A DNA stretch of 64,000 nt from Polytrichum commune (taxonomy: Eukaryota; Streptophyta; Polytrichopsida; Polytrichales; Polytrichaceae). How positions within the stretch are numbered: the stretch's first letter is position 1; each line of letters begins with the position of its first letter. The stretch covers positions 46,276,758 to 46,340,757 of the forward strand of contig OX485805.1 of assembly GCA_950295325.1 (NCBI GenBank), given 5' to 3'. The position numbers were made by a program, and so were the translations under genes. The notes under the pieces are model-generated. The model was not told the DNA's origin. It was given only the letters and a program-made list of their open reading frames with translations, and did no database searches. Shown piece after piece: positions 5,849 to 64,000 of the stretch.

Positions 5849-5870
5849 GTTGTCTCGGATCCGAGACAAC
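5849..5870. repeat. Perfect 22-bp GATC-centred palindrome upstream of the 25S fragment
   Basis: Half-site GTTGTCTCGGA followed by its exact reverse complement. It is the same element as in the 2.6-3.3 kb array and lies about 40 bp before the first recognisable 25S rRNA base. Confidence 0.9.
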
Positions 5871-39510: not shown

Positions 39511-42500
39511 CTACTTCAAATCGTAACCTAGAAATTGTGGCACACTCAATGTACCTAAAACTCGAAGGTTATATCCAGGATCATTGATTAAGTAGTGTCC
39601 GGGTGCTAGGAGAGCTTTCTCCGCGTCTTTGTGGGCTTCGTCTTCGTGACCAAGCTTGAAGTTCACATATGCTCGATGCTTTAGAACTTCGTAATCATCC
39701 ACCGGTTCGGCCAACTTAGAAGCACGGTTTAGATCCTCCAATGCCTCTTCATAATTGCCCATGAGCTCTTTTAGTACACCTCGCTCTTGCCAAGCGAATG
39801 AATTAGTTGGATCCGCTTCCAATGCCCGATTAGCACTTTCAAGTGCTCCACTATAATCCCCTATCATTGTTTTGGCAAAACATTCGTTCCTACACACATT
39901 TTGCATAAGGAGGATTTCTAGTGAATATGTGAATTGAAAATTTTCTAACCAAATAATCATATGTGAGCAGTGTTCCAATTGGGGCCATTTCCTAGGTAGA
40001 CGAAGCCCTTAGTTAATTTAGAAATGCAATACCAACAATTTTTGAGAGCGAAGGGGCAATAAGAGGGGGTATGGAAGCAAAATTGGGGTTGGGACTTGCT
40101 AGCTTGTGTGCTCATTCGTTGGACAATCACGACCATTGAAACTAAATGAAGGGTTGCATTGGACAACCGAAGTTGTCAATGAATATTTTCATGTGTTAAG
40201 AAGTAGGTGCATGTTCTTTAATGTTGGTTATCTCATTGCTTCTTGCATGCCTCTACTCTTCCTCTAGAATTTTCCTTCTCTCCAATTTACAGGATATTGG
40301 GAAGGGGGGTCCACTAACAGAACAAAAGTGGGTGAAATAAGCAGAGAAAATATTGTGCATGTAATTAACGACACAAGTAAAACCTAGCAAAGTTTAAGGT
40401 GAAAAGGTCTTACGATTTATGAATATTGTCATTCTCCGGATCATCGAAGTCGGCCGACTCAAAATCTGCAAGGGCTTCCTTGTAGAGTTTGAGTTCCATG
40501 TTGACTTGCCCCCGGGCCACCTTTGCTGCGATCGCATTCAACTGGACCTTGTTATACTTCTCAGGGTCCATATAAGTCAGTATACGAATGGCTCCACATT
40601 GCATATCATCATCGACGTCGTCATGGAGGAAATTCTCCAATGTGGCCATGATCTCTGGATTTTGAGTTGAAATGAAGGCCCGGTTCATCTTGTTGGCAGC
40701 AACGAGAGTCGACAAGCAAGTGATCAACCACATCGGTGTCAAAAGGATGTCTTCCTTGTCATGCGTGGCTTCCAAAAGCCGGCCAAGCACGGAAACCAAG
40801 CTGGTCGAATTCATGAGTTTTAGCGAAGTCTCCTCGTCGTCTGCAATACGTGACAAGGCAAAAGCCACTCTGGTTTTTAGCCAAGGCTCGTCTTCGGGTT
40901 GGTCCACATCAAGCGCACTCACCAATGTGTCGACAAGCCCTTCAATGCTCGCGATTTTAATTCGAGCGCTTTTGGATATCGCCAAATCACCTAAGCACTC
41001 AATAGCGAACGAGTGAATCTTAATATCGCTCTTGTCCGGTTGAAGTATGGCTTCTAGTAGTGTTTGCAGCACAGAAACATTGTCCAAAATGGAGTCGCAA
41101 TTCGCAGGATGGGCGAGGCTAGATAATGCCCAAAGCGCTTTGATTTTTAGGTCAGCCGGTACTTTGGGTGAGAGCATATTAACCAACCTTTCGTGAGTGA
41201 GTCTTGTGTGTATGGTCAATATGGGCTCCACTGAATCCCAAACCCACGACATAGCTATCAAAGCTCCACACACCTTAGTGAATGTTTCCTTCTCTTCGAG
41301 TAATTTTGCGCAACTTTGATCGTCCAACTCCATGTGAGTGATGAACCTCATAATGACCTGCAAGGCAATAGTAAAAAAAATTGATCAGTCTTTATGTTGT
41401 TGTGAATAGTAGGAAGTCCTCAAGATAGCAAGAGGAGGATTCTTAGAGAGAAGTTCTTATTACACTGACTATGGTAAACACTGTGGGTCATACTATTGAG
41501 CTTATTTCCACATGTGGATGCACAATGTGTACACCAAAAAGTTTGGGGATAATATTGTGGATGCACAATATTTAACATAAGAGCTTCGCGCTGTAGAGTA
41601 CAATATATCTTTTGGATTGATAGTACTGGGCATTAAAAGACTTAAAACTTAGAGGGAGGAAGTGGGCACATCACGGGGCAATGACAAGTGTAAATAGGGC
41701 TAAACACAAATACTTGCACGATGCTCCATATTGTGGGTCACATTACATGGTTGCCAGGGTCAGTCACACTAAAACATCCGCCCCCGATATTTAACATAAT
41801 TTGTACAATCATGACAAAGCTACAAATGTCAAAGTACATCAGTGACCCAATTCCAACACAAGCAGACAACTATGTCCTTCAAAAAAATTACTGATGGCAT
41901 TATGCTAAGCATCAAAAAGACAACACTATCTGGATTTTGTATTCTGATTTTTTCAGGGCTGGGGCAGACTGTGTAACCAGTTTACATCACAAAGGAACTT
42001 GGTATTTCGTAGACCATATCAAAATCACGAAATGTTGAAATTTCACGAACTCAACATTGACTCCAAGTGACGGATTTGCTACTTTTCAATAACTTCCGTG
42101 AAATGAATCAAGCACATTAAGCTTCTCAAGTGCTCAACGTGTCAATTACAGGTACTTCAAAGATTATTTGTGCTAGATTTCAATTCAAGTAAAATGGTAT
42201 AAGGGGTCACGGGAGGCGTATTCACATCACCTTTGACACAAGCTGGTGACTTTGCATTTTCTGTTTGTCTGCATTTTGTGAAGGTAGTAAAATGTGGACA
42301 AAATGTCGAATGGCTTTCTTTAGGTCCTCGATCCTTTCGTGTTGCTCGAGTGGAAGATTGAGTGTCTTTGAGACCTCCATTATCGTCTTGGAAGCCTCAG
42401 TAGTGAAGATATCCTTCTTTGGGTTGGCATAGAGAACAGAAAGGGCTCTCGCGAGTTCGCTCTCTTCGCTTAATATGTCATGACCAGATGTCATGTTGTT

Positions 42501-44405
42501 GTGTACCATCATACTGCAAAGTATTTTGCTAACCTCATCCTTGAATTCTTTCAAAATCACGTCCAGGAGGAGGCCCGACAACGTCCATTCGTTTTCGAAT
42601 TTGATATGAAACGGGGGTTCGGACATGGAAATCTCAACCAAGTCGACTGAAATGAAATCGTGGTCCTTGAGGTGTTTGAGGGACGTCTTGAAAGCAACTC
42701 CAGAACATTTTGGACGGATGTGCTTGAAGAAGATCACAAGAAGAGGTTCTGGCAGAGCTTCAGCATCACAAAAGGCCATACAAAACAAAAGGTTTTGATC
42801 ATCAGATGGCAAACCTTTTATGGCCATGACATACGCCACAATCACATTGTCATATCTCACATGCCCAAAAACATTATCCTCGTCATCGTCATCATTTTGT
42901 TGGATTGACACACGGTCATAGTAATCATCATAGACCTCAGTCCAGGAGCTACTATCATCCGGGTTATGGTCAATTTGTCTTCCAATAGTTGCAAGAACCA
43001 CAGGCAGCGAGTCTGCTTTTGATATTATGTTGTCTGCAACATCCTGTAAAACACCAACTTTTGAAAACTGTTAAGATTGACTCGATTCACTGGATTTAGA
43101 AGTTCAAAATCTGGATATGGTGCAATATGGTAGACTCGTGATGTATGTCAACTAATTATATGACTTCAACAAGTTGTCAAATGATTTGAAGCGTGAACTT
43201 CACGGATGTGTTTTTTCACATGTAGAACGTGTCACAATTGGAAATGCTTTAGACACAAAAATAACAAAGGTGCATAAGAATCGGATACTCACTTGAAAAC
43301 TGCTGGGAATCTCCCCATTCGGCAAGTTCGAAACACAATTACCAAGAATTTGACGTGCTTCCTCGAGTGTAGGTTTCTGCATGTGGACTTCTCTTGCACC
43401 GGAACAAATTCCTCTGCCACCACGATCAGAGGTGATAAGATACTTCACCTTCTTTGCATCCAAAACCCTGAGATCCCTCACCAGTTTCGCATCATGCACA
43501 TCATCGAGAATTATGAGAAGATTTAACTCGAGAAGCCGTCGTTGCAGTTTTTTGAGATGAGACAAATCAGTCTTGCCTTCTGGATTTGAATCCTTCCTCA
43601 AATCACCTTTACCCTCTTCATTCGACTCAGATGTAATGTCAAACCCCAAATTCTTCAGCAACTTGATACAGACAGAGCGACTGTTTGCTTTCGGACCACA
43701 TGGTAGAAATTGTACCCCATCTGTAAACAATTGTGTGGATGGTCCTGACTCTGGTGAAGATGTTGCAATTTGTCGGTAGTGTTGAGCTAGGGATTTGGCA
43801 AGACAAGTTTTACCTGACCCGGGGCCTCCATACAGAGTGACAACTTGATCCCCTTGCATATCCTCCAAATGTTTCTTCACCGATTCCTCGGTCCCAGACA
43901 GTTTCACAATTTTCTTGTCCAGAGTATTTTGCAACACATCTGGAAGCTCATCAGCAATCCTTTCAAACATCAAGTCAGCCTCCTGCTTCTCTCTAATTCG
44001 TGAAGGTATTCTTTCGAACGCGCGAACCACTTTGTCCATGCAATCTTTCAAAGGGATCGGAAACGCACGTGCTTTGAACATGAATGACAGGCAAGGGATT
44101 TGGAAAGCGTGGCTCGCCTTGTACATGAATGAGAGACAACCATTGCTTTGCAATTCCTCCAATTTCTTGCTCTCTTCCTGGAGGAGTTTTACGGCGATCG
44201 CGAGTGGCTCCCGCACAATTTCTTCTTGTGCTAAACCATTCCTTCTTATGGCTTCCACCCACCAGACTTTCCTCTCTTCCATTTTGGCTTTCAGGTCTTT
44301 GAAATCTTCCAAATCCTTTGAGGCTGCGTACCACTCATCCTCACCGTCTTGTACAATTTTTGTAGCTTCTATTGCTAATGTTCCAAGTAATGTGGATATG
44401 TCCAT
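39511..44405 (-). CDS. NB-ARC-ARM-TPR immune receptor (NLR-type), copy B
   Basis: Four exons: 43293-44405 (ATG 44403-44405), 42231-43043, 40414-41357 and 39511-39889, with standard GT-AG sites and consistent phases, giving 1,082 residues. Order: helical N-terminal domain (about 1-140, begins MDISTLLGTLAIEATKIV), P-loop GGPGSGKT (about 193-200), kinase-2 LLIILDDV (about 296-303), KYLITSDRGG (RNBS-B position), DSLPVVLATIG in the GLPL position, a winged-helix-like segment LPSDDQNLLFCMAFCDAEAL, a GHDIL motif where MHD is expected, ARM-type helical repeats in exon 3 and TPRs in exon 4 (ALESANRALEADP). Family knowledge: NB-ARC proteins are ATP/ADP-switched intracellular immune receptors. Here ARM and TPR replace LRRs. 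The in-frame upstream AAG/CTC codons lack an earlier ATG, so 44405 is the chosen start. No lesion seen; likely functional. Confidence 0.8.
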
Positions 44406-47400
44406 ATTTCGGAGCTTCAAAACACATGATAAGTTGTAACAAAGTCAGTATACTACTTACTCAGCGCAATGTAGTGTTATTAAAAAAAATTGAGCACTAC
44501 GTAAACTTTGTTGAAAAATTAGCAACATGATGGACCTTGAGCTTGACCGACTATTTGCAACTCCCCACCCCAGCCATACTGATCCACTTAGTGGGTTGAT
44601 TGGAACCTGAACCTCTAATGATGGCCTTCTTGGAACTCTGCTCTTCTAGTGCAGTTTTGAAAACCCTAACAAAGCATTCGAGGTTTAACGCCACTCGATC
44701 ATTTGTCAATCACAAAATTATCGTAAGTTCACAATATTTAGAAGTTTGGGTGTACCGAGGAAACCCCTATTTTGACTACAAATACTAAAAAGCTCAAGAA
44801 AATATATACTCATCAAGGCAAAGGTTTCAGAAACTCAACGTAAACTCTGTAGAGTTGTATAACATTCTCTAGCACCAAGGAAGCTCAGTGCGGATTATGT
44901 TAAGAACCTCATGCAAGTAGTGAGCAGAAAGCACTTGTGTATCCAAACAATGAAACCCACCTTAACCAGAACTCTGTGGAAAATTATTTTAATTCCACAA
45001 ATTCCTTAAAGCCCATCTGATTCTCCCTCCACCAAAGGGATATGGAAAACGTCACAAGTAACCCAAATATGTGCAAAAGCATCCACAGCTTCCTCTTCAC
45101 TCTCAACTCACTGTCACCAGAAACTCTTGCTTGCAAATCCTTAACGCTCAACACTGTCTTCACATTGTGCAGACAATAAAATGCCACAACACAGAATGAT
45201 GGACACAAGTGGAGTGGAAGTGTAACAGACGTGCATTCTCCTTTTCAAGGGAGACAATTAGCAGACGCTGCAACAGTGGCAACTCCGGACAAACAGGAAG
45301 GCGCACTTAAAATACAGCAGATGTGCCTTTAGATGGATACTTTTCTACTTCAAATTTACGCCCACTTCTCGTAGAATACTACGAATCACGCAATTAGTGC
45401 GAAATGCTAAGCCAATCCAAGTGCTCCCTGTAGCCATTTCTCTGGAGCTCGTATGAATATCTTATGCATTATCAAAGTAAAGATTCTTGTACTCATCAAG
45501 TGGTCATATACTGGAGGTCCCATCAATCATGTTGACTATTGAGCAAGCTAGAATGGGTAGCATCTTTTGAGAGCGTAGTCCACTCTCCTTTCAACACGTG
45601 TATTATTGGTGCCAATTCTTAGATCCACACCTAACCACATACAACTTAAATATAGGTGTCCAGATTCGTGTTGTGTTGGATTTAGGCACGACTACGTTGT
45701 GGCCAAACTTATGTTTGGTGAGTTATGCCAAAGGGTGAAAGTTCATGATATGACATAATAGTGACCTACCAGGGGAGAGGACAACTTGGGGTGAAAGTGT
45801 TGATTATCATTGTAGGAGCTCGGTGTTTGTTATTTCTAACCAAATTAACCACTAAATCAGAGTCATGAGCCATGAATTATTCTAGTGAGCTTGAGCTAGG
45901 ATGAATTTGTAAGCAACCTATAGGGGGTATGCTTTTATTATCACCTTCGGTAGGTGTTACAAAACCAAACCCCATGCATAAGCTCAATTTATGGCAGCGA
46001 TAATATCATGATGGAGCAGCATTGACAAAAGGTATTGAACTTTCAATACGGAAGTGAAAAAGGCTTATTCTGAGAAAGATCTTGTACGTTTCTTAATTAT
46101 AGTAATGTATGGCAAATATTGATACAAATGTGCCTTGCAGTCAAACATCCACTCAATTGGTCATGGCACTAGAAGAAATGATCTTGTCCAAATGAACCCC
46201 ACATGGTAGTTCTTTTTGCTTTGAAAATTGGCCCCAGTAGTTGTTTGGTGTAAACTTGCATTTCAATTGAGATGGCCAAGTGGAACCCTGGGTAAGATAG
46301 TGGCCATGTCACTTGTTTTGGTGGCCTCTATTGTTTTGAGGTGACCACCACCCATGTCGGTCTTGTATACCATTCGCCAGACATACCAATTGAGGGTGGA
46401 TAGTCTGGGTAGCACCGTGGAGCCCTCCAACCTTGGCTGTGTGATTGTTCATGGTAGGGGTGCGCAAGAGGGAGGCAATGAGTTGTAACCTTACCCACAT
46501 GGTGTGATATACCTTGACGAAGAGACTTATTGATTGAATTATGCAAGAATGAAAGACTAATCACACCGAGTTGTACTTATGAGCATAATTAGCATGTGAG
46601 CATATGGTGTTTGTATTCAAACAACTCCAAAAGACAAAATGCAACAGACAACCCAAGACAGAATGTCGTACAAGGGCTAGACAACCCATGAAGGAATATT
46701 GCATGGGGGGTAGATAGCTTCCGATGGAAGATGTTTACATTAGAGTTACACAACTCCAACTAGGAGTTAGACACCTCCTTCTTAAAGATCTTTCTAGAAG
46801 AGTTAGACAACTCTAACTAGAAGATATAAATTGGAGTTAGATAACTTTCAACAAATGGATGTTATTCATTGGAGTTGGACAACTCAAGGCGCAAGCATGA
46901 TCAAGTGGATAGTTCATGTACCTTGCATAGGTTAAATAAAGTGAAAGTGATTCAAAACTAGACACTAACTTTGAATTTTGTGAAGGGAAAAAATCATAAG
47001 CATTTTAAAAACACATTGATCTACAAAGCCAAGAAACTTATGTTGACAAAAGTTTTTTCAAGAAAAGTGTACATATGTTAGTAGACCGTGGAAGTTGTGT
47101 ACAAGTAGATGATATTCAACAAGTAGTTTTCCTAAATTAGTTCAAAATATGATACAACTACATAAAATTCATGTTTTTCTTCAAATTTTTGTAATAATGC
47201 CCTCAAGTTCATAATACATTCAAGGAATATGAAAATAATAATAATATATAAGTCCAACTTCAAAAGATTTAAGGTCATGAAATCTACGTCCAAAACCATA
47301 TTTGGCCATTATCTTTTGAGCATCACTTTCAATGATGATTTTTTCATATTTCATCTTGATATTCTATGTTTGATTATCTAACACAACAATAGAGGTCGCA

Positions 47401-48776: not shown

Positions 48777-49566
48777 GTGCCACTGAGGGTGGCCAATGGG
48801 TGAGGGTACGTTGATATCGAGTTGGTGTGCATTAGTGTTGGATGGGTGTTGAGTGGGGGTTAGGTGGGTATTAAATGGGCGTTGAGTTCGCGTTGGATGC
48901 CAATGGGTTAGTAATGGGTGCCAATGGGTTGAAGTCAAAATGCCAATGGGTTAGTACATGATGCCAATGGGTTGGTGTTGGGTTGGAATTGGTAGGTGTT
49001 ATGGGGTTTCTTTGGCACATTACGTGCAAATCCCAATTATTCTAAAAGCATTTAAAAAAAGCATTTAACCTCCTTGGCCTTCAAAAACCCAAACCCCTCC
49101 ACAAATAAAGGATTTGGGCTTTAAAATATGCATCCAAAAAATTGGACGTCAACAATCACTTCACCTCCTACACCTTCAAAAAACCAAAATCCACAAATAT
49201 TAAGCACGTGGACTTCAAAATATGCATCAACATCAACATACATTTAAGCATTAACACATCCAAAAAAAAACAAAACCCACAAAAATTAAGGACTTGGGCT
49301 TCAAAATATGCATTACAAATTGATCATTAACATACGTATGACCTCCAATATTGAATCAAAGAACCAAGCAAAACCAAATAAGAAAGAAAGAGAAGAACTT
49401 ACCTTGAAGATGGCCAATTGACTAAGATCACCAACGTGACCAAAAGAACCAACACCATGTGTGGCAAGTGAAAGAGGAGAGGGGGAGAGAATAGCAACAC
49501 TAGAGTTCTTATTCTCACTAGTGTAGTCGCAGTAGTGTTGAGTTCAAGATGACAATGGCATTTAAG

Positions 49567-50340
49567 GGCCGGTTTACACTACGGTGGAGAAGTCCACCGG
49601 TCATGAAAAAAAGGGCGTTTCTCAATTGTGATTGGTCGAAAATGCAACTCTTGACCGGTGGGTGTTTACACTAGGTGAAGAAAACAATGGTGGTGAACTT
49701 TTCTCATGGATGATAAAATGACATGGCCGCCTACATGGCGGCACTTTTTGGAGTTGGGCTTCTCCGGAGGAGGAGTTTCTTGTATGGCCTCAAGAGGCCG
49801 GAGAAGCCCAACTCAATAAAAATAATTTATTGCCTTTAATTCTTCTCCGGCACATTCACCATTTGCCTCATAACACTATATTAAACATTTCGGGACTTTC
49901 GGGAGTCCCAAAGTGAAGATTTTTTTACATTTTGGGGACATGGGAACATATTTATTGCTCCCAGGAACATGCAACTAGCTTGTGGGAACGTGGGAACAAT
50001 GAATTTAGACCATGTGAATGCCAGATGCGCACGTGGGAACCTATGTATGGGAACGTTAAAGCGAACGCATAAACGCTCTATGGGAACATGGGAACGATAT
50101 ATGGGAACGTTGGGAACGTTCTATGGGAACGCGGGAACGCTCTATGGGAACGTATGTGCGCACTGTGGAACGGGGGAACAAGAAGACATTTTGTGGCTAC
50201 ATGGGAACGGTGTGTGGTCGCGGCAGGGTAGTGTGGTTTGCAAACGTGATAGAAGGGGTGTTTGTGGTGTGCACAGTGACAGACCGAGGGCTCATTAATA
50301 CAAGTAAACCCAAACCCACATCCAAATACAAAGGATAGAC
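49567..50340. mobile_element. Possible PIF/Harbinger-like left end and hairpin-rich sequence
   Basis: Homology with copy A stops at TTTAAG and the new sequence begins GGCCGGTTTACACTA, similar in style to Harbinger/Tourist ends after a TAA target. An exact 17-bp inverted repeat (GAGTTGGGCTTCTCCGG at 49751-49767 and its complement at 49798-49814) follows, then a degenerate GGGAACG tandem repeat at about 50020-50180. No matching right end was found, so element identity is tentative. Confidence 0.35.
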
Positions 50341-50669
50341 CTTGCATTACATACTTCAAAGTTCAAATTACAACACTTCACATTAGATAAATGAACCCAC
50401 CCTCTATAATGCTGGTGGTTTCCATTAAGAGTTGCACGGGTACACCGTGCCCACAATGGGGTTCCATTTAGCTGCATAGTGTTGAAATCAACAAAAATTG
50501 CACCCACATGTCCGAGAGGAGCCATGATGGTCTCCCATCGAGGAACCACCCCAAAAAAATTAGTACCAATCATTGGAGTATTTGATGTGGTGTCTCACAT
50601 TGTCAAGGAAATCACATCTAATCATGAATCATTGTGTGACGACTACGATGTGGGTTTTCCAGTCTCGCA

Positions 50670-53600
50670 TTACGAGGAAGGGTTGCCCCGAGCTCCCCGT
50701 CTACCAGTTGCACGGCCACGACCTCGAGTTCCATGTCCACCCCCTACATTTCCACGTCCACGACCTACTCGTCGCGCACTCGGCACATCAACGTCCTCCT
50801 CAACCGCCATCCCTCCGCGCTCTTGCGCAGAACAACGGCGAAGGTTGTCTTTGGCAAATTCAATCTGCTCTGGTGGAATAGTAATCTTAAGGGGCTCAAC
50901 ATCTTCATGTGCAGGTAGAGGCCATGCTGCCAAGATGCAGTCAATTGGTTGCCAGTCGGGGATGGAATATTTCGAATCGGCTTTCCACTTGAAGTTCGTG
51001 TTGGAGTCCCAACCATGGTATTTCTTTGTTATGTCTCTAGCAGTTGAAGTGGGAGTGAACCATTGTACCAGAATCTGACGGGGATGGTCCCCAGTGACGT
51101 TCAAGTTTGGTGGACACAAAGCTCGGCACACCCAAATGGGTCTATCAATATCTTGATCTTGGGGTCGAAGAATGAGGAAATGCCCCTCATGCACGTTGTC
51201 GGCAATGCGGAAAGCCGGTGCAGGTCGAAGGTTAGAGGGGCCCACATAATGGTCATCTGGTTGGTGTTCCTCACGAAGTTCACCAGTACTCATGAAAGGA
51301 TGTGCGTCCCTTTCGATTCGGGAGGATGGCCAGAATCCCTCCTGGAGTGCCAATCCCGCAGTGTACACATTTGTGAGGGGTGCCCGTAATGCCTCCAGTA
51401 CCCCAGTCCAGTATTGTAAAAGATGTGTTTGTGAGCCCCTATATGCTCCGGTCATGTCATGGTCACATATAGATTGCCAGTAGTCAACAAACCCTTGCAA
51501 CCCAACAAGAACATCGTCCAGTTTTGCCATTTCTCGAGGTTTAGCAGGGTAAGGTTCCCCAGGTGGGAAAACTGGCTCCCCCTTTATGTTGGATTTCCAC
51601 ATCAATATGCCATCCTTGGGCAACCATTCATCATGCGTACTAAGCACCTTGTAATGCATGACGGGCCAACCATCATCCCGTACAACAAATTTGAATTGTT
51701 GGGCTTTCGTATGGCCAATGAGTTTGTCTTGGCCATCAGGAATGTACTCACTAACAAAAGCCCTCCAATCTGGAAGCTCCTCTATCATATGTGGGATGAT
51801 AGGGACCTTCTCCATGTCCATGTATGATTTCATGAGCAAGGGGATAGTGGGGTAATCATGTTCACGCAAGTCCATACTCCATCTACCAAATGAAGCGTCA
51901 ATGTCGTCATGTGTATGACCAACTAAAAGGTAAGACACGTGGACCTCTGTGAATATACCTTTGGCCGTGAGCATGGACCAAAATGCCTTCACATATCTAC
52001 ACTTGTTGTCCTTCCAACAATTATCGAGTTGAACATGCAAAACGGGTGGAAGCGAGACAGCTGGAATAGGCTCACTAGGTGGAGGTCATAATCCTGACAA
52101 ACATACATCACTCCCATGAAGAACAGCACGATAAAGCGGTGACCGACCCGCACCATGGAATAGCATGCGAGATGATGAAGCCGGGGGCTGTTCCAAATCG
52201 CGAAGAAGCCTCGCAAATGAGCCCACAGTATGGTTGCAATCACCAGGATACAAATCCAATGCATAATGAGCATATCTCTCATCTCCATGGCCATGAGCCA
52301 TCATGCCTGTCACGGAAAGTGGTAGTTTCGTGAACATATCAGTGTCTTTGTTCTTGTTAGCAAAGCATGGAGATGCAGTTTTGCCATGGTCCATTTTGTC
52401 GTGAATGATGGTCAAAACCTTGCGCGGATGCTCAATGGACAACGCTCTCATACAACGGTAAGCATTACGAGCGGATTCTTGCTGTGCCTGGTGCTTCTCC
52501 AACTGCTTGGAAAACCCGATGTGTGCGGCAGAACCTTTAACATGTTGAAGAATAATAGCCATAAGTGAATCGCATTTCCCACAGCGAGCAAAATTGTCCC
52601 CTGCTCTTTTTGTCACGTAGTGCTTAAAATAATTCTGTCTTATTTGGCTCAAAGTCGAAAGAGAGATTGGTTGCAACCCACATTTGTCATTCACCTGAAT
52701 ATCATACCACATACAACATTTAGACAGCCACAGAAATGAGAACACCTGGATTGAGGCAATCACTAACAACACATTGAAAATGGACTAAGTGGAACATCGG
52801 GAGCCTACTAACCTGGTTGATTGTAACTAAAAATTTCTTCCATTTTGTGCCGCGAGGCAAGACCATCTCCACTACTCGAGTACCATTAGGCAAAGTGCGG
52901 GATTTATGAGGCATCATGTCCGCTTTGTCCTCTAAGAGGTTGGAAAGAGTGGCAGTGGCTTGCTGAGTGGACACACGATACCGTTTGGTGTTCAAGTTCC
53001 CATGGTCTCGTGGTCGCACCCCACAATTGAACTCTTGTCGATTTCTGTAGAACGCGGTTTTTGAAATCACAAATATGTGCCTCCATGCGATTAGGCAAAT
53101 ATCACGTCCACTAAGTGTTACCACATTCGTATGCCCCCCCGGAAGTGGATGTACTTGTCCGTGGACCTCAAGACGTTTTGCATGCCTCATCCTTGTGGAG
53201 CAATCATAAAATTCAGTTCGAAGAGCGAGAGCCTCATCTCTAGGAAAGAATCTAAGGCACTCGCGATCACAACACAAAACTGCAGATAGTTGTTGTATGC
53301 TTGCATTGGTTAGTATTTGGGATTTTTTCGTTGGCTTACGACGCTCTGGTATCCTGGATGTTTCATACGCTCTCTTCCCGTCCTTCCTTCGCTTCTCCAG
53401 CGACTTGGTTTGTGCCCGTAATCTGTGGCCACTAACAAGGAGATGATGTGCCAGAGTGCAACCACCGTGGAAAACACGAGAGATTGGCCACGCCCTCAAA
53501 GCAAACATGGCCCCCATGTCCATCATGCCATGAATAGGCTCCATTATTAGTACACCAACGTGATCAGGTCCCAAACATTTGTCTTCCACGCAGTCAATTG

Positions 53601-53863
53601 GGTTTACATTACGGCAAATTCCTTTTGCCATATTGTGTCCATGTTCATTCACAAGCATAACAGGCTTGTTCACCCAATCATCCCTACGAAGTCCACTGCA
53701 ATTCGGGTCAATATCTTCAACCGGAACAGTTTCATCTTCCGAGAATATTGCGTCGGAAAGGGATGACCCCTGCACAAACACTTCATTAGTAAAACATATT
53801 CCAACAAACAATGTGAAACATCTTAGTTTAGAAAACCACCTCTGTGGTAGATTCCGCATCCAT
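50670..53863 (-). pseudogene. DUF7869-type transposon protein gene with one internal TGA
   Basis: Three exons: 53840-53863 (ATG), 52813-53769 and 50670-52694, all phase 0, 1,001 codons before the final stop. A single TGA (52086-52088, about codon 530) interrupts exon 3; the frame is otherwise open. About 20 codons after it comes VLHVQLDNCWKDNKCRYVKA, and about 40 residues later VGHTHDDIDASFGR. This pair (D-N...K and HTHDDID) is the signature of the DUF7869 family seen in transposon-like genes of plants and animals and looks like a DDE-type catalytic core (inference). A Cys pair (ARCGKCDSLM) may bind metal. The C-terminus is Arg/Gly rich. TGA may be nonsense decay of a TGG or CGA codon, or a sequencing error. 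The 94-bp palindrome lies about 220 bp upstream of the ATG. Confidence 0.65.
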
Positions 53864-54085
53864 GTGCTCGGCCAATCTGCACAAGAACACTTGCGCGGTC
53901 AGTGTTACAACTTAGGCCTGATATAGCTTCACGTACCATTCGCTATTGAATCATATTAGTGCTTGTACTCGCAATCACCAAACGTTTAAACTAAAAACAC
54001 AACTGTAGATATCCTAAAGAACGAAAACTTCATCCTGTATTATCTGCCTTGTGACCTCACTAGATATCACCTATATCACCTGTTA

Positions 54086-54179
54086 CAATATGTCGTGTAT
54101 GTGGCGCGGGCATGCATCCCACTTTCACTCGATCGAGTGAAAGTGGGATGCATGCCCGCGCCACATACACGACATATTG
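54086..54179. repeat. 94-bp perfect palindrome
   Basis: Every base pairs about the centre 54132/54133, 47 bp per arm with no loop. The inner arm is ATCCCACTTTCACTCGA; the outer arm runs through GTGGCGCGGGCATGC to CAATATGTCG. The inner 24 bp is the ACTTTCACTCGA palindrome found in ten other places in this window. It lies in the 5' flank of the DUF7869-type gene. Confidence 0.97.
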
Positions 54180-54378
54180 GGCCCTTCATGCCTTTTCTTT
54201 TCTCAGAAAATCCGGTCATAAATAGATGTTACCCAATCTATCCCACCCGATTAACACCTACCTCCCTCTATACATATTATTTGTGTCGATAATAAAAACG
54301 TCGATCACCAAACAATCACATCCTCTCCCCAGAAACTAATCACATCCTCATCCCCAAACAATCACATGTTCATCCCCA

Positions 54379-54527
54379 TGCAATCGACTCGCCAGCCCAC
54401 TTTCACTCGATCGAGTGAAAGTGGTGGGCCTGCCAGCGCCGCGCCACAAAACTTTCACTCGATCGAGTGAAAGTGGGCTGGCGAGTCGATTGCAGGCCCA
54501 CCACTTTCACTCGATCGAGTGAAAGTG
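54379..54527. repeat. Three-palindrome cluster with inverted, exchanged flanks
   Basis: Palindromes at 54397-54424 (28 bp), 54451-54474 (24 bp) and 54502-54527 (26 bp) share the CTTTCACTCGA half-site. The 44 bp at 54379-54422 recur inverted at 54451-54494. The right flank of the first palindrome (GGTGGGCCTGC) recurs inverted as the left flank of the third. Spacers are 26-27 bp. Confidence 0.95.
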
Positions 54528-55582
54528 TTGGGCCTCCCAGCGCCGGTTGTTCGGGCCGTACTGTACGGACTGCAGGGATGGGTACAGGGCCCCGCAAATA
54601 TGGTGCCGCTGCAATGCTCCATGCATATGGAACGGCACATTGAACAGCGCCTCTTCGATCAGGTGTTTCTTGTTGTGTAGGACCGAACCTTGTGTGAAAT
54701 TGATCCCTGGAAGGGATAGAAAGAAGAATGTTGTGGTGTTGTGCTCCCTGGCACAAAGGGCGACAAAAGAGGGTTCGAGTGTGCTCCTTCCAGGCTTATA
54801 TAGTCGGGTGTAGCAGAATTGGTGGGAGAATAGTGCCCTAATCCAATTTTGAAGGTTCCCTCCCTTTCGTTTTAGGCCGTCACAGATCCGTATGCGGACG
54901 GCTTTTGATGCCTTTGGGTGGGTTTTTACATGCACCTTGATACAATTGTGTTAGTGGGATTGTTTTGCATTATTTTCGGCATGATGTGTTTAAGCCAATC
55001 CGGTCCACCCCCAATCCTGTAATGATAGTTAGCACATCGCCCACTCTTGGGCATCACTACTATGAGCGCGTACTACCCGCTGGTACACCTTTGGATCCAA
55101 GTTTGATTGATGAGATGAAAACACGCCAGAATGTGGTCCTATCAACAGGTACCCTCAGCCCACCACTTCCATCGCACTTGTGGCATCACACCCTGCTATT
55201 GAGGCGCGTACAACGTTGAGGTACTCACAAGCGCTCATTGTCGTTGCAACCTACATTTGTGCACCGGCTTCAAGGTTGAAGATATTTGCACCCCTAGACC
55301 TTGAATCTCTTGAAAAGAAATGGATGTCCCCAACATGTCATAACAATTACAATTAAATCATCGGCCCTCATCCCAACGTATCTATGTATGCTTGTAGTAT
55401 TGCAGATAAATTGCCATGCTCCCAATGCTATCGGAGTGGTTTATGGCACCCCGATGAGTTCTCCTTCCGAAATTCATATTAACTATTTCAATATTAATCC
55501 AAAATTAATTATTATGTGGGTGGGTCCAATTTCCAATTACAATGTGCTTTGCACATCTCTCAACATTGACATAATGTCTTAA
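54528..55582. other. Unassigned sequence beside the palindrome cluster
   Basis: The first 50 bp hold CCCAGCGCC and, further on, GTACTGTACGGAC; related words flank the 63.5-kb palindrome array. A minus-strand frame at about 54,600-54,935 reads on without a known motif. No gene is supported. Confidence 0.35.
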
Positions 55583-55870
55583 TAACTTCCCAATAGAGGT
55601 TAGTAACTTCCCAACTTCCCAATAGAGGTTACTAGTAACTTCCCAATAGAGATTAATAACTTCCCAATAGAGGTTAGTAACTTCCCAATAGAGATTAGTA
55701 ACTTCCCAATAGAGGTTAGTAACTTCCCAATAGAGATTAGTAACTTCCCAACTTCCCAATAGAGGTTACTAGTAACTTCTCAATAGAGATTAGTAACTTC
55801 CCAATAGAGGTTAGTAACTTCCCAATAGAGATTAGTAACTTCCCAACAGAGGTTAGTAACTTCCCAATAG
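55583..55870. repeat. 21-bp minisatellite, about 13-14 units
   Basis: The unit is TAACTTCCCAATAGAGGTTAG with GGTT/GATT variants. Its length is a multiple of three, so it yields a false TNLYWEV peptide repeat on the minus strand. Confidence 0.95.
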
Positions 55871-56129
55871 AAGCAAATTAGGAAGGGGCTTATTAACCCC
55901 ATTATAGTAACCCCATTGGGCTTATGGGGTTCAACAATTCATAAATTAAATTGGAAGAATTTGAAATTTGCGCCTCCAACTTCATCTGAGGATGCCGTCT
56001 CGAATTGACCCTAGACCCTTCTACCCTATTTAACAATTAGTCCAATACCCTAAATGAAAGGTGAAAAGTGCATGTGTGGGTTAATATTAGTGAAGATTGA
56101 GTAGCCTCTGGAGGCCCATCAGCCTACTT

Positions 56130-56164
56130 AAACCCTAAACCCTAAACCCTAAACCCTAAACCCT
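56130..56164. repeat. Interstitial telomere-type repeat, five AAACCCT units
   Basis: Five exact units of the plant-type telomere repeat in the C-rich orientation, embedded in unique sequence. Confidence 0.95.
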
Positions 56165-57414
56165 ATACTCGAAGTACCACTTTGGTTTGCATTTGAAGCA
56201 AATAATGAATGGGCTACCATGATACAAAACCAATCCCAAATATATTTGATATTCATATTAAGTGCTATGTCTGAATCGGTTGCTTCCACCATTGGTCACA
56301 CTTTTTACATTATTTTGTTAGGTCCAATAGCTAAGTCATAGTCTAAGAACTCTAAAATGATTTGAATCAGCTGATCAAACTAGTCAATTTAAAGCGTTGT
56401 CTACATTTGAGCACGTCGTAAGTTAATCTCATCCTAACACGTGTTCATTTAGTGTTCCCTCATAACTGCACGTATTACAAGCATACAACTCTTGGACAAT
56501 TGATCTGCGTTAGTGACAAATATAGGTGTTTAATTAAGAAGCGCGAACATAAGGCCCTCAAACCTTAATCACCATGTGTCCAAGTGTCTTCGTGGCAATA
56601 ATGCATCCAAATAAATGCATGGCTTGGACCCTGTAGGAAGCAGTTACAACACTGGCCATTCCCGCAAATTCCTGTGAGCATGCCACGTGTCACATATCTT
56701 CACATCATGTCTTCAAAAGTTCACGCCCAAGCAGTTGCTCTTGCAATGGTCGGAGTCAATTGTTGAAAGTGCCTATATTGTTCGTAATTGGGAGTTCACC
56801 CATTGGATCTCCCCTTTATGACCTCTCCACTTTCCTTCCATCCACACTCATAACCTTAGTACGTGTAATTAGGTTGCCTTCGCAAATGGGTAAAGTTGTG
56901 TTGCCTCTTACATCGCCTCTTTACGCAAGCAACTTTCCATAGGTCAAACTCGGATCAAAAACCTTATATTAAGTTTTTTGGTTCATTCCTATCACAATTA
57001 AAGTCCATACAAAATTTGTGTATTTTGTTGTACTGGTAATAAATAATCAAGTAATGTGACATGCCAATAGATTAGTGCAAGACTACCTAATTGCCAATAT
57101 TGGTGTAGGTAGATTCATTGGCATTTATTTGAGCTACTAGTCTAAGAGACAAATTGAATCCAAACTTAAGTTAGAGTTAGAGCAAACCAAGAGCTACCTC
57201 AATTGATGGAAACAGGGATTTGAGTATATTTGGATTATGCATTAATTTTGGACAACACAACTGCCTAGTAGTATATGGCGTGCACTAGATTGGAAAACTA
57301 CATGAAATTAATATAATGGTGGTTGGCAAATATGGCATACATTGTCAAACATTTGAAGTTGTCACTGATTGTTGTGTTGTCACTCCCACTCCAGTGCGCA
57401 ATAATTGTGAACTT
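56165..57414. other. Non-coding segment between inverted telomeric motifs
   Basis: AT-rich, with no reading frame or motif that I recognise. Confidence 0.4.
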
Positions 57415-57435
57415 TTTAGGGTTTAGGGTTTAGGG
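57415..57435. repeat. Interstitial telomere-type repeat, three TTTAGGG units
   Basis: Three exact units followed by degenerate TTTGGGG. The orientation is opposite to the block at 56130-56164. Confidence 0.9.
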
Positions 57436-58200
57436 TTTGGGGTTTATGGGTTAAGTTATTTAGTGGGCTCCAATCTGCCTTTGAAATCCAATGAGCTCAG
57501 TTATGTGCAAAATGCAAGGGTGGCCATTACGAATGGAACGGTCATTTGAAGCTCCAATGTGGTGTTTTGAAAAATGGGGTAACGTTATGGTCACTAACCT
57601 TTCACCATTTAAACTAGTGATCAATCTTGGGTCAAGTAACATAGTGACATTTCAAACATATTGGCATAAATATGCTTACAATTCAACCTACAAGCCTCAA
57701 CCCTCCATCCTAAACATGCACTCTAAAAACTAAAACTCTATGCCTGAACCCCAAGTTCTAAACGTTACCCCTAGACAATGAGTTTAATATCTAGCCGACG
57801 TTGAATGAATCATATCATCGTGACGAAGGCCACAAACCTATGCATTGGGGAGTCAAGTGTTCCACATGTTGATGGATGAGAGTAAACTTGTCAAAGCATA
57901 ATTATTATACCCATAAGAAGTTTACACATTTGGTATGACACTAGTCTTATAACTAGTGTTAGACATAAACGCGCCACCACCCTCCCTACGACCATGCACC
58001 TTCTCTTATCTTTGTTAAGAAATTTTCACATCCTTACTAACACTAAATTTGGGCATGTGACTTACCATAGTCCAAGTTTAGTGTTTGAGTTCACAATGAA
58101 TGTTACTTACTTTCATCTAGGGTTACTAATATTTAGTGTATGCGTTCGTATTTTGTGTATCTAACACTAAATATCACTAGAGTGGGTTGGGACATATATG
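57436..58200. other. Non-coding stretch, nothing recognised
   Basis: AT-rich unique sequence with no supported gene. Confidence 0.4.
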
Positions 58201-58203
58201 CAC

Positions 58204-60235
58204 CACTATAGTTAACTAATCATTAATAGGTCAATGATCATGCACAAATAATATCATCGTGAACTAAACCTTAAAGGTCAGCAATCATGCACCACTATAG
58301 TTAACTAATCATTAATAGGTTAGTGATCAAGCACCACTATAGTTAACTAGGTTCTGAGAGGATTGTTTATTGCGCACCACTATTCACCACTTAGTGTAGT
58401 TAGTGGCGTTGTAGTTGCCACTATTATTTAGTGGTAGAAGGTCTCGAATACTTGCCAGCAGATTGCCTACTAGTAGGCTTATGAAAGTGCACAATATTAA
58501 TATCGGATGGAGGGCTAACCCTTGCGACACCCACTTTCACCATATGTTATAATCAACACAACAATAACATAACATCTGTTATGTTATTATAACCAACAGA
58601 CAACCTTAAAGTTTACCACCTTGCAATAAAGAAGTTCAACCCAAGTTAACTTATGCGTAGTACAATGAACACACGACATCCTTACACCGTCGCGTAGGCC
58701 TAAGGTATAGACACCCATAACCGATAACGCACCCATCACCGACAAGTAGACCTATGCATGAACGCGCATGGCTTAAATTAGCAGAAGTCGATGTTTTTAT
58801 ATTATAAACGTGAGGACCATATGACTTCGTGGAGGGGAAGTTGTCGAAATAGTTGTTGTCGGTCATGGGTGAAGCTATATGTTGGTTATGGACTCTAACC
58901 AACTTTCATGTTTGCAAAATTTGTAGTAATTCTAACTTTACTTAATCAATTTTGAAAAAAAGCTCGACATTCATCATGGACATTATTTTCCTACGCAGAA
59001 AAATTAACTCCTTCTTGATAACCGAAGATATGCTATGCTGAAATTCTTAAGTTATCGGTTATAGGTATAATATGTACCTTAACTTAAATTTAGGGGAAAT
59101 CTAGATATATTTAAAGATCCTACTACAGGCCACCGGTCCCTCTATAAATGTCCGTGAAGGATAGAAGATTTCAAGAGTGATTTAGATTGTGAATTTCTTA
59201 CATCTTTCTGCTACTGCTTTCTTGTTGTCCTCGAGATTATCATTGATACATTCTATTAACCTTGATAATGTCACCCTTGGTAATAGAACACCTTAAAGTT
59301 TGAAACCGATTTTCTTAGTGTAAAACTCCCTTGTTATTATCCCTATCATCCTAGACAATGCCACTATCCAAAATCCAAAATACATCCAAAATACTCCAAA
59401 ATACTCCAAAATCCGTAGTGTGAACGTTATAATATCAATTATGGATGGATTGTATGTGATGGTTGGATGGACAGATTGTAATAGCCAAAAGGGTCATGAG
59501 CCGCCCCCTGTGATAATGCAATGCTATTCACATGGTCATGAGCCGCCCATGTGCACCAACTTTGAACGGTGTTGTCTATACACGGCACTCAAAGGTGTTG
59601 TATGGGACGGCACTGTCAAGACTTCAGACCTTAAACAACTGCCAAAATAACTAGAGTTAACTAGAGTTTTTTCAAGACATTAGAAAACAACTATAGTTAA
59701 CTAGGAAATTTTCAAACCAATTTGAAGAACAACTATAGTTAACTAGAAATATTTAAGACCATATTAAAAAACAACTATAGTTAACTAGAAAAAAATTCAA
59801 CCAACTACAACTTGAGAGTTCCAAAAAATGTAAGGAGTCAACCAACAAGTTATTTCATTTTTGAATTAACGTATATTACATAACTTCTATAATAGACCTT
59901 ATGTTTGTCACCCATGAAGGCCCATCCCAAGAAGGACTAGAACCCATTATACTCTAAGTAACTTAGACATAATGAAGTCATCATCATGATGCTCATTGGG
60001 TGTTGATTGAGTGCGGATCACAACTGGAATCAAGTCCCAAATTTAAATTTTGAATAAAAGAGAAGGAAAATATATAGATGCTATGATCTGTCATGGTACT
60101 ACACTACAGGTTGTGCCCAACTTTAGTTAACTAGATATAACTATAGTTAACTAGATTTTTTGGCATACCAAAATCAAAACAACTATAGTTAACTACATTT
60201 TTTGGCAGGTCAAATCACAAACAACTATAGTTACG
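58204..60235. repeat. Dispersed ACTATAGTTAACTA motif cluster
   Basis: About nine near-identical copies of (A)ACTATAGTTAACTAG occur, three near 58.2-58.35 kb, three at 59.68-59.79 kb and three at 60.14-60.23 kb. The first group is embedded in ~40-90-bp direct repeats with CACCACTATAG and ATTAATAGG words. The second and third groups lie ~40 bp apart, each preceded by AACA. The motif is partly self-complementary. No gene lies between. Confidence 0.8.
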
Positions 60236-60539
60236 AAAGGCAACTAGTTAACTGATAGTTGAATTAGTTGGTTAGTTGTCCAAGGTCTGCAAGACTTCTC
60301 GGCCTCTAATATGCATCCCACCTTCCGTCACATGTGTTCACCTAATATGTGTCTATGAGGGTTTCGGCTTGTGTGAAGTAATTTGGGATGTTAGTTAAGT
60401 TCTACGGTTAGGTGAGCTGGTCTAGGTACAGAGTAAGTGTCGACTTAAGCTAAATTAGTTCAATTGGTTTGCAGTGCAGGTGTTATTCGTTGTGTTGTTG
60501 TTTTTGTTGTTGTTGCTACATTGGAAGCTAGTGATTCCA

Positions 60540-60830
60540 TGGAAGAAGACCCATTGATTGTTGATAGCAGTCACTGTGATGACGAGTCTAAAGTAGTATA
60601 GCTAAGCGATCATGCACAAAAATATGCTAAAGATGTTTTGAATTTTATGGTTAGCCAAGGTTTTCAGATTTTCAACACCCAGGAGTTGTTAGGAATGGAA
60701 AAAATCCATAACAAACTCATTAGAATTGGTGTTGGACAATAAACATCACTAAAACAATGTGACATTAGAAGCTCCTTTGTCTCTAGTGAGAGGTCTTTAC
60801 CTGGTCTCAATGACAGATTATGATGTGCTC
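60540..60830 (+). pseudogene. Decayed coding remnant, family unknown
   Basis: From ATG 60539 the frame reads MEEDPLIVDSSHCDDESK, hits TAG, then continues as HAQKYAKDVLNFMVSQGFQI and FNTQELLGMEKIHNKL before TAA. The composition and length between stops suggest old coding sequence, but nothing identifies it. Confidence 0.25.
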
Positions 60831-62490
60831 TTGCTGTTATTCACAATTTTGAATTAGAGTTTACATGTAAAAACATTGAAGTCTTGTATTTGTTATTTTC
60901 TTTTTTTACATTGAAATTTTATTTTGATTGTCTACCTATTTTTTTTGATAATATCACATTATGCACAAATCTTCAGAATGTGACATTATCAAATATGACA
61001 CCTTCAATGCTTATATCACACTTTATGGTGAAACGGATGCTGTGATATTATCAAGGTTAGACTGTACCAATATGTTGAAATGTCAGTACCGTTTCAATAT
61101 ACTCAAACATCAATGTTTCATTATTGAAATTATTATTCTATCTTTTCACCATGTGTGTTCTTTAAGTTTGGTCTCACTTATATTATAATAGTATTGAACA
61201 TCGCTTAAATGATAAACATGATAATGTGCACTTTGAACAAAAATTTCAATACATACATGAAGGGCAATTTTTGAGCTAACCCTTCATTTTGAAAGGGAAA
61301 ATTTTAAGTTACCCTTCCTTATGAAATACAAGCAACCCTTCAAATTTATTCCCTGACACTAAACACCATAAACAATGTAACAATACTTATTGAATGCAGG
61401 GCCTAGTAAACAAATTAAACTTTTTAGGTTTGATCACCCCACCTTATTTTTCACTCGGAAATTAAACTCAAGGTTTTGATGATGATTTCAAGACAAAATT
61501 GCTCAGAAAAGAAATATTTGGACTACAAGGGAGCGCTAAATTGTCGTCCAAAGTATTCCAATGTGCTACTCTCACTGTCATAATGTAGATTTTTCAATTA
61601 ATATTTTTGCTTAAACATGTTACTTATGTTGATGAATTGTATCATATGGGCAATTAGTAGGCTAGCCTTGACACTTTGAGACCCCGCCAGCATCTAGTTT
61701 AGGCCCTTCGCAAATTGTGCACTTGACACTAAACATCATAAACGGTGTAGTACCTTCTTACATGTGGTGAAATATATATGTATATGAATATGTATGTGTA
61801 TATGTATAATTTTTGAGCTGCATATATATAGGTCCATTCAACTGAATCGTTTTTGAGAGTAGAGATTATCAACGTTTCAATACATAGTACACTCTTTTAA
61901 ACGTGTCTTCTTGATGTTTGCTCTTTGATCCTCACTGAACCCCATACCATTCAAATATAGGGGTTTCGGTTTATATACCAGCCAAGCGGTGGCGGTGGCC
62001 GTATCATATCTAAATTGAACCATTGTGATGGAATCAAGCCATTTGGACGAAAGCTCATTTGGTAAGTTAAGTGAATCATAAGTGAAAGCACCAACTAACA
62101 TCATACAGTTTGCAATCAATACCCTCTACAGTTAGTAGGAAGTACCCTTCCTACTAACCCACACCCTCCTTAATGAGAACGGGTGAAACTACACCCTAGC
62201 CTACTCGTCCGCCCATCATGGTCCGGCGTCTAGGATCTGGGCCGTCCATTATTGATGGCACAATCCTGACCATCGGCACTTGGGCGAAGGGACGTGGCCG
62301 TTCCCAATCTTGGGTCCAGAATGACCTCCCCCGCTCAACACTTTCATTGTGTTTTCTCCTCTTCGATCCTAGTGTTTTCTCCTCTTGGTTCTTCCGTTGC
62401 AACATTGTGCACCCTCTCCCTCTCCGCACCCGGCTCCAAGTGTATTATGCATTTGCCTTCGTCTATGCTCCTTGCTTCATTGAAATTGCT
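60831..62490. other. AT-rich non-coding stretch
   Basis: Contains a short TATATGTATATGAATATG tract near 61780 and a repeated phrase ACACTAAACA(C/T)CATAAAC at 61357 and 61728. No gene recognised. Confidence 0.4.
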
Positions 62491-62640
62491 GATCTAGTAT
62501 GCACCTTGCACCTTGCTTCACTGCCATCCGGTTGATCTCTTCTAGTATGCACCTTGTTTCATTGAAATCTGGTTGATATCTTGTAGTATGCACCTGGTTC
62601 ACTCCAATGTGGTTGAGCTCTGCCTCTAGTATGCACATTG
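62491..62640. repeat. ~55-bp degenerate minisatellite, three units
   Basis: CTAGTATGCACCTTG (variants CCTGG, CATTG) recurs with TTCA-TG---GGTTGA-CTCT between. The same phrase appears again near 62911, so it is part of a dispersed repeat. Confidence 0.7.
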
Positions 62641-63440
62641 CTCAACAATCTGCATCTTCCTTTTTTCAATTCACAATCTGCATCATATCTCCCTTTTCGC
62701 ACATTCCTCCACCCTCCTGAAGTGCCATCCACACCTGGGATCCACTCAGTATATCACAAAGAGCATCCTGGTTATGTTTATTTCATTGAATGCATTTTGC
62801 TTGACGTTTTTCTATACATTAGGCACCCTGAATTCTTATTAAGAAATCTTCTTTTGTTTGTTCCATCTCCATGGATTCGGGATGTTCACCCTGATACTCT
62901 TGATTTCTAAAGAGTATGCACCTGGAGCCTCCAAGTGTATTAAGTCAATTTTCGTGTTCCACATTGTTTGTTTGCTATGCTTCATTGAAATCTTCACCCC
63001 CAGCATCCTAAATTTGTTCAGTGCAATCGGCATCTTGAATTTTCCTTCGATATGCTCACTTTTTGAGGTATTTACAACTGGAACCTAATCACATTCTGGT
63101 TTTTCTTTTTCAATCCAGGCCCCTGAATCCTTGCAGCATAAGCATTCAGATTAGCCATATTCCTGTACACAATATTAAATAACCTCCATCTTGATCCATG
63201 TAGCAAGACATGGTATTGGTTTCTACAGTAATCAGAACTTATGTAAAATCCCCACTCCTGCTCTTATTGTTGATTCCAAGTGAAGGTCGTGCAAGCAGAG
63301 ACTGAGTAGCAAATATACATCCATACTCTTCACACATCAGGTACACTTCCCGGCTTGCATTGAATGTCAAAGACATAGAAATAAGAAGTTTACAGTCGAA
63401 GTATATTTCAAGATATAGTGGTGGGAAATATCCCCGTTCA
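62641..63440. other. Non-coding stretch before the palindrome array
   Basis: No supported gene. CTGACTGTACGGACACTC at 63444 resembles a word beside the 54.5-kb palindrome cluster. Confidence 0.4.
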
Positions 63441-63474
63441 CACCTGACTGTACGGACACTCTTCAGGGTTGGAG

Positions 63475-63959
63475 GCGCTGGGCCACTTTCACTCGATCGA
63501 GTGAAAGTGGCCCAGCGCTGGCGTGCTGGCTGCCTGAGAGCCATGGCTGGCCACTGGCCACTTTCACTCGATCGAGTGAAAGTGGCCCAGCGCTGGCGTG
63601 CTGGCTGCCTGAGAGCCATGGCTGGCCACTGGCCACTTTCACTCGATCGAGTGAAAGTGGCCCAGCGCTGGCGTGCTGGCTGCCTGAGAGCCATGGCTGG
63701 CCACTGGCCACTTTCACTCGATCGAGTGAAAGTGGCCCAGCGCTGGCGTGCTGGCTGCCTGAGAGCCATGGCTGGCCACTGGTCACTTTCACTCGATCGA
63801 GTGAAAGTGGCCCAGCGCTGGCGTGCTGGCTGCCTGAGAGCCATGGCTGGCCACTGGCCACTTTCACTCGATCGAGTGAAAGTGGCCCAGCGCTCGCGTG
63901 CTGACTGCCTGCTTGTGCCATGGACAACCATGGCTCACTTTCACTCGATCGAGTGAAAG
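63475..63959. repeat. 75-bp tandem array of seven GATC-centred palindromes
   Basis: Palindrome starts at 63481, 63556, 63631, 63706, 63781 and 63856 are exactly 75 bp apart; the seventh (63938-63959) is 22 bp with a changed spacer. Core half-site: CTTTCACTCGA. The first copy extends to a perfect 44 bp (63475-63518). The spacer holds smaller palindromes: CCAGCGCTGG, GCCATGGC and two TGGCCA. Because 75 is a multiple of three, long open frames appear on both strands (peptides with SLDRVKV); these are artefacts. Confidence 0.97.
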
Positions 63960-64000
63960 CATTAATGTTGAGTTGAGTGATGCATTAATGTGGTTTGAAG

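Follow-up and report, generated by a model that had tools for sequence, protein, structure and literature searches.

A perfect palindrome in Polytrichum commune is an internal part of a DUF7869 TIR transposon that carries repeated dyads near its genes

The window analysed in this study was a stretch of 64,000 nucleotides of the Polytrichum commune genome. Its right part contains a DNA transposon with terminal inverted repeats (TIRs). The window locus and a second copy on C1 were nearly identical across about 22.4 kb, and the ends of this identity were sharp. The perfect palindrome at 54086-54179 was shown to be an inherited internal part of this 22.4-kb TIR transposon, which has nearly identical copies. 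The features of the transposon within the window were as follows.

49872..64000, + strand: in-window part of the TIR transposon of 22,419 bp, running on to 72290 in window numbering (C3:46326629-46349047); from alignment with the C1:63.19M copy, the sharp ends and the TIR positions
49872..49899, + strand: left 28-bp TIR, with the target duplication TCAT alongside; from end comparison
50673..53898, − strand: DUF7869 gene with introns, in open-frame pieces 53898-52723, 52784-52089 and 52085-50673; from PF25273, with splice sites by eye
54086..54179, no strand: perfect palindrome of 35-bp arm, 24-bp core and 35-bp arm; from self-complementarity
54121..54144, no strand: 24-bp core dyad ACTTTCACTCGATCGAGTGAAAGT, the palindrome centre; from core search and copy comparison
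54379..54494, no strand: sister module of 20-bp arm, core, 28-bp spacer, core and inverted 20-bp arm; arranged like the two-core allele described below
54503..54526, no strand: fourth core of cluster 1, its flanks mirrored in part; from core search and context comparison
54793..54805, − strand: TATA-box-like sequence GACTATATAAGCC, by eye
63475..63959, no strand: array 2, with seven cores in units of 75-77 bp, just 5' of the gene for a 993-aa protein; from core search and copy comparison

The TIR is 28 bp long (AACACTATATTAAACATTTCGGGACTTT). A 4-bp target duplication was found in 12 of 12 pairs examined; one of these was a short element, and the rest were 11 of the 14 copies that carry the palindrome. 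With at most 3 mismatches, the TIR pattern occurred genome-wide 70 times in forward and 62 times in reverse orientation. Several TIR ends of the family, some of them nested, lie within 96 kb at C2:23193592-23289424, and a 3.6-kb deletion derivative is included there.

The DUF7869 gene was identified by a PF25273 match on 50670-52040 (E=6e-31). A further PF25273 match on 52086-52772 had E=2.9e-4 but scored 20.9 bits, below the 26-bit cut-off. A profile of the DUF7869 proteins gave one match in the PDB, which was not credible (E 0.44). The transposon also contains an ORF for a NIF-type phosphatase (PF03031, E=4e-10) and a plus-strand gene for a protein of 993 aa, whose start codon lies near 64033, past the window end. 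The 993-aa frame was open in two of three copies read and broken at codon 82 in the third. The window copy has a stop where eight other copies read through; seven further sequences did not cover the position. The 993-aa protein had no Pfam or NCBIfam match, its PDB matches (E 0.91 and above) were not credible, and no DNA-binding domain was found in it by domain and profile searches. BLASTP gave no match between it and the window's other 'DGNHR' protein. By eye, two stretches of the 993-aa protein (about 64.0-67.4 kb in window numbering; also in L019) resembled known motifs: INGQHTVAAS was like a ParB box and VLNLFGGLKPVATAL like a methyltransferase motif, with no credible profile or PDB match.

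Other repeats and genes were also observed. Inside the transposon, about five telomere-like TAAACCC units stand at 56129-56165, and about five TTTAGGG units stand inverted at 57415-57452, 1.25 kb further on. Repeats of this TTTAGGG/TAAACCC kind suggest a plant-like genome. A 21-bp tandem array, AACTTCCCAATAGAG(G/A)TTAGT, occupies 55579-55871 and is separate from the cores. Elsewhere in the window, two similar minus-strand ORF runs (18836-24179 and 39511-44420) and an NB-ARC match at 43200-44420 suggested a duplicated NB-ARC-type gene.

The two arms of the palindrome (54086-54132 and 54133-54179) are 47 nt each and 100% complementary, with 0 nt of spacer. The flawless, loopless 47-bp inverted repeat described in the initial annotation was therefore confirmed, with 0 mismatches. 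Reuse of the inner core elsewhere, described there too, was also found. The 22-bp core CTTTCACTCGATCGAGTGAAAG occurred 11 times in the window and 0 times in 100 dinucleotide shuffles. The 408-Mb genome contained 211 exact cores and 280 matches with at most two mismatches, 69 of which bore one or two; the pattern read backwards gave 0 matches in the genome search. Exact cores past C2:57.2 Mb were counted, with positions known only in the fetched copies. On contig C1, the 29 exact cores among the matches listed were all inside two TIR-bounded elements.

Several candidate identities of the palindrome and core were rejected. A fold-back element or MITE insertion was rejected because, by eye, no target duplication borders the palindrome: the flanks ...CCTGTTA and GGGCCCT have no repeat in common. 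The core gave 0 exact matches in viral_contigs and genome_contigs, and a site shared with viruses or prokaryotes was rejected. A known RNA family was ruled out by 0 Rfam matches in 49000-64000. The initial annotation had also likened the palindrome to sites resolved by hairpin-forming enzymes, and nothing supporting this was found: the scanned ORFs gave no resolvase or HUH Pfam match, though the 993-aa protein has no family assignment, and the palindrome is internal to a TIR element.

The copies of the palindrome were compared across the genome. The 41-bp arm pattern was found at 14 places, and 28 of 28 arms had 0 mismatches though 3 were permitted. The palindrome is thus not a single copy genome-wide, the case that the initial annotation had set against its own reading. 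The adjoining 200 bp gave 15 genome matches, 14 of them long and at least 98% identical. The loopless single-core form was present in 13 of the 14 copies. This form had been thought to need recent origin or active maintenance at the site in order to survive; it is instead the same in 13 transposon copies. No change in the palindrome was seen in the 14 copies against about 1.9 expected, a difference that was not significant (P about 0.16).

The remaining copy, at C6:34.30 Mb, carries a two-core form of 148 bp, in which the same two 35-bp arms surround a core, a 30-bp spacer and a core. This spacer is not a palindrome, and the sister module at 54379-54494 has a similar one. By eye, the spacer of the two-core form differs from the sister spacer of its own copy at about 3 of 31 positions, compared with differences of 0.4-1.3% between the two-core copy and the other copies; the extra spacer therefore looks old and not like a recent insertion. 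When a tree was built from 1,428 coding bp with the diverged C2 subfamily as its root, the two-core copy branched outside the other 13, with a weak support of 63. In an unrooted FastTree of 12 copies it was joined instead with C3_26.0 (support 0.34), which has the single-core form. These two copies share two variant bases and a sister-module spacer that is longer by one base.

The flanks of the cores were compared within the family. The 187 exact cores in the fetched copies fell into 49 distinct contexts at 25 bp. The palindrome around most cores measures 22-32 bp. Past the 22-bp core, mirroring around the same core extended for 36 bp in the 94-bp palindrome, 14 bp in one context, 11 bp in three contexts and 10 bp in another, with at most 6 bp in the rest. 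Mirrored flanks had been claimed for 54086-54179 alone; besides these further cores, the module at 54379-54494 has mirrored 20-bp flanks across two cores. Three of 46 distinct 16-bp flanks occurred on both sides of the core. One core of the C2 subfamily carries an asymmetric one-base change and lies 48 bp from its exact reverse complement; in the same subfamily, one spacer is, by eye, an imperfect reverse complement of the next. In array 2 of the C6:34.30 Mb copy, one spacer is mirrored at both its ends. Flank mirroring is recurrent in this transposon family, which makes template switching a reasonable idea for the origin of the arms. Palindromic sites would let repair or replication switch between them in either orientation, and this would leave direct and inverted flank copies around an unchanged core. 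Homogenisation of inverted-repeat arms by template switching is described in the accessible part of one report (PMC8604942).

The palindrome probably became loopless when 54 bp, comprising a core and the spacer, dropped out of an older module of arm, core, spacer, core and arm. Loop loss is judged most likely because the two-core allele with the same arms branches, with weak support, outside the other 13 copies. We infer the direction of this change, since the fetched stretches of the C2 subfamily have no counterpart of the region. The 54-bp loss would have occurred by pairing or exchange between the two identical cores. The initial annotation had instead proposed a direct origin, in which a snap-back template switch at a single core hairpin copied the flank as its mirror image. 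The spacerless perfect arms agree with that proposal, as do mirrored flanks at other cores, and template switching between inverted repeats is a mutation process described in the part of PMC8604942 that was available. The sole other allele, however, has the same arms with two cores and a spacer apparently older than the copies, so that mirroring probably preceded the loopless state, and a direct snap-back origin is considered improbable. Inverted flank copies beside cores do occur in the family, and single-core mirroring as the origin here is not supported. The template-switch idea suits the transposon family better than the site at 54086-54179, though the arms of the palindrome may themselves stem from a template switch across the two-core module. 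An assembly artefact has a practically negligible probability: sequencing and assembly of palindromes are error-prone in general, but the identical form was assembled at 13 separate places.

The core dyad was found in three clusters per element, one 5' of the DUF7869 coding part and two at the 993-aa gene, of which one is 5' of that gene and the other is intronic (gene models by eye). The cores of cluster 1 lie between the TATA-like box and the likely first DUF7869 coding exon, near 53860-53884 (by eye). At the 993-aa gene, array 2 lies directly 5' of a splice acceptor and the start codon, and an intron contains array 3 (by eye). Cluster 1 had four cores in 13 copies and five in one. With imperfect cores counted, array 2 had 3-15 cores (13 copies) and array 3 had 1-5 (14 copies). 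Mutated cores were present in copies C3_26.0 and C4_18.8. The three clusters of one element have the core in common and differ in their spacers.

Other DUF7869 genes were investigated for repeated dyads. The genome gave 1,491 first-look DUF7869 candidates, 150 of which were scored, and several had open frames of 500-975 aa. In the 14 control genomes the DUF7869 profile had matches in none. At least four copies of a dyad were found in eight of nine sampled neighbourhoods of other DUF7869 genes; such a dyad family was found in 1 of 20 control bins (2.5 kb each, window 1-50000). Three of the nine neighbourhoods were 7.0-8.5 kb long against bins of 2.5 kb, and the six 2.5-kb stretches alone gave five of six. 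The nine also do not represent nine independent families: one dyad is common to three of them and a second dyad to two, and a further neighbourhood is close to the second. The repeated dyads were 20-34 bp long, and several types were distinct from the focal core: CCCACGGGTG-TT-CACCCGTGGG and the related CCACGGGCGATCGCCCGTGG; GGTGAGGCATATGCC(T/C)CACC; GGTTTGGGTCGATCGACCCAAACC; and AGGTTTACGGACGYGCGTCCGTAAACCT. The L076 neighbourhood had no repeated dyad, and in L070 two of seven dyads stood after the first long DUF7869 frame and not upstream of it. At L071:6942-6969, the end ATATAGTGTT resembles the focal TIR with 8 mismatches in 28 and is a possible right end of a 502-aa DUF7869 family.

The dyad GGTTTGGGTCGATCGACCCAAACC has the same centre, TCGATCGA, as the focal core and occurs 462 times exactly in the genome. 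Among the DUF7869 matches listed on C1, a GGTTTGGGTCGATCGACCCAAACC cluster lay upstream within 6 kb in 5 of 23 and downstream in 0 of 23; random placement gave a mean of 0.03, and 0 of 10,000 trials reached 5. The other 18 of the 23 had no exact GGTTTGGGTCGATCGACCCAAACC within 6 kb upstream, and many of them may be other families. Eleven other GGTTTGGGTCGATCGACCCAAACC clusters on C1 had no DUF7869 match within 6 kb upstream among the 150 of 1,491 candidates.

The lone positive control bin belongs to another multi-copy unit, whose dyad has 132 genome matches. In the window, the dyad TTGTCTCGGATCCGAGACAA stands at 2639-3279 and also at 5850 and 7216, in units of about 155 bp just 5' of the minus-strand ORF 1923-2663, which contains a 'VWDGNHRHIAW' stretch. 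The dyad had 132 genome matches with at most one mismatch, and the 50 matches listed were in clusters of 2-7. The TTGTCTCGGATCCGAGACAA unit has the look of a further multi-copy element that carries a dyad of its own.

The dyads are read as putative binding sites of an element-encoded dimeric protein that would affect the expression or silencing of the element genes, since the dyad differs from one DUF7869 family to another while its place stays similar; our confidence in this reading is just above even. Dyads that are regularly placed near genes and change in sequence between families suggest binding proteins encoded by each family. Another reading is that the cores are transposase binding sites required in cis for movement. 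The dyads are repeated within a DNA transposon, and transposases often bind repeats. CACTA (En/Spm) elements offer a model: they have TNPA-bound subterminal repeats, a terminal CACTA and a 3-bp duplication, and their arrays are needed for movement. Like them, the focal element is a TIR DNA transposon with motifs repeated in direct and inverted orientation. It differs in its ends (AACACTA) and in its 4-bp duplication, and its core arrays are internal, the cores being about 4.2, 6.6 and 8.8 kb from the nearer transposon end. The repeats near the transposon ends are a different, GGGAACG-based sequence (by eye). The 3.6-kb element has the same TIRs and joins the leftmost 185 bp of the full-length transposon to its rightmost 3.4 kb. 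It is flanked by a separate 4-bp duplication and contains no core (best match, 9 mismatches in 22). Since this derivative, the one coreless deletion derivative read, appears to have moved, the core seems dispensable in cis for movement, and the reading as required transposase sites is very improbable.

A possible but unlikely alternative to a binding site is that the cores have no function and are a palindromic minisatellite seed, spreading by template switching and unequal exchange, with seeds that differ between families by accident. The wide variation of core number between arrays, the copying of flanks both ways, the mutated cores in C3_26.0 and C4_18.8 and the share of mismatched genome matches would all suit such a seed. 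Accident would not be expected to give repeated dyads in eight of nine sampled DUF7869 neighbourhoods or the 5-to-0 upstream bias of GGTTTGGGTCGATCGACCCAAACC, and the three clusters of an element keep the core in common but not the spacers. The sites could also act as RNA, with hairpins in the 5' leader or intron steering splicing, translation or small-RNA pathways. A 131-nt strand around the palindrome has a predicted fold of -96.1 kcal/mol (z -16.8), and mismatched pairs on the sense strand were G-U in 80 cases against A-C in 38 at three loci with one dyad. This G-U excess, however, was counted over repeats of a single dyad type that are not independent, weak sites (up to 5 mismatches) among them, and altered focal cores show G-U and A-C pairs alike. 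Most cores offer only a short palindrome of 22-32 bp, and the Rfam search was negative; action as RNA therefore has only a small chance of being correct.

The arrangement was compared with known systems. VANDALs are Mutator-like elements with a target duplication of about 9 bp, and in their VANC anti-silencing system a protein binds the motif and removes DNA methylation. The focal element is not a VANDAL, as its ends, its duplication length and the form of its motifs differ: it has 28-bp TIRs, 4-bp duplications in 12 of 12 pairs and DUF7869. The accepted Pfam matches in the scanned transposon ORFs were DUF7869 and NIF only, and a VANC relative was not among them. In the accessible parts of the reports on VANDAL21/VANC21 and VANDAL6/VANC6 of Arabidopsis, short family-specific motifs are described as tandem repeats in the introns and the non-coding upstream parts of the elements' own genes, with copy numbers that change between copies and different motifs in related families (PMC5735166, PMC10398659). 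According to the same parts, VANC motifs are 8-9 bp long, and those of VANC21 are arrayed in one orientation (PMC5735166, PMC10398659). The focal dyads are likewise tandem, family-specific and placed in introns and upstream regions, a likeness of layout, with leaders and introns assigned by eye. They differ as palindromes of 20-34 bp with flanks in both orientations. The VANC-target arrays are the closest known layout, and a VANDAL-like anti-silencing function would be suggested by this likeness. A literature search, with most subscription journals outside its scope, gave nothing closer than the VANC work and nothing under the name DUF7869.

Bacterial parS sites are bound by ParB. The half-sites of the core (TTTCAC...GTGAAA) are similar to parS, and the INGQHTVAAS stretch of the 993-aa protein is like a ParB box (by eye). 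The core centre is longer (TCGATCGA), the transposon is nuclear, and there was no ParB profile match; the similarity is only a lead. Quasi-palindrome correction by template switching is described, in the available parts of two reports, as giving mirrored flanks and inverted copies beside short inverted repeats (PMC8604942, PMC3820800). Compared with that process as described there, the seed here is a repeated palindromic core, and loop loss explains the perfect state better.

The best explanation overall combines an inherited transposon palindrome, loop loss and dyads that are putative binding sites; it is held with confidence somewhat above even. A broader proposal can be put forward tentatively, and it is on balance doubtful. 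DUF7869 transposons may have a family-specific recognition of their own, independent of VANDALs, in which arrays of 20-34-bp palindromic operators and a matched dimeric protein would activate or de-silence the protein's own family. The form of the operator would itself drive turnover: exchange between operators in either orientation would shuffle and mirror flanks and spacers while the operator persists, and the 94-bp palindrome would be a collapsed product.

If the dyads are operators matched to element proteins, transposons would have evolved targets specific to each family beside their own genes a second time, independently, and in a group of elements that is abundant. Several dyad types in one genome would make the matching of dyads and proteins directly testable. 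The finding would also account for one class of perfect palindrome seen in assemblies, with no need for a dedicated maintenance enzyme.
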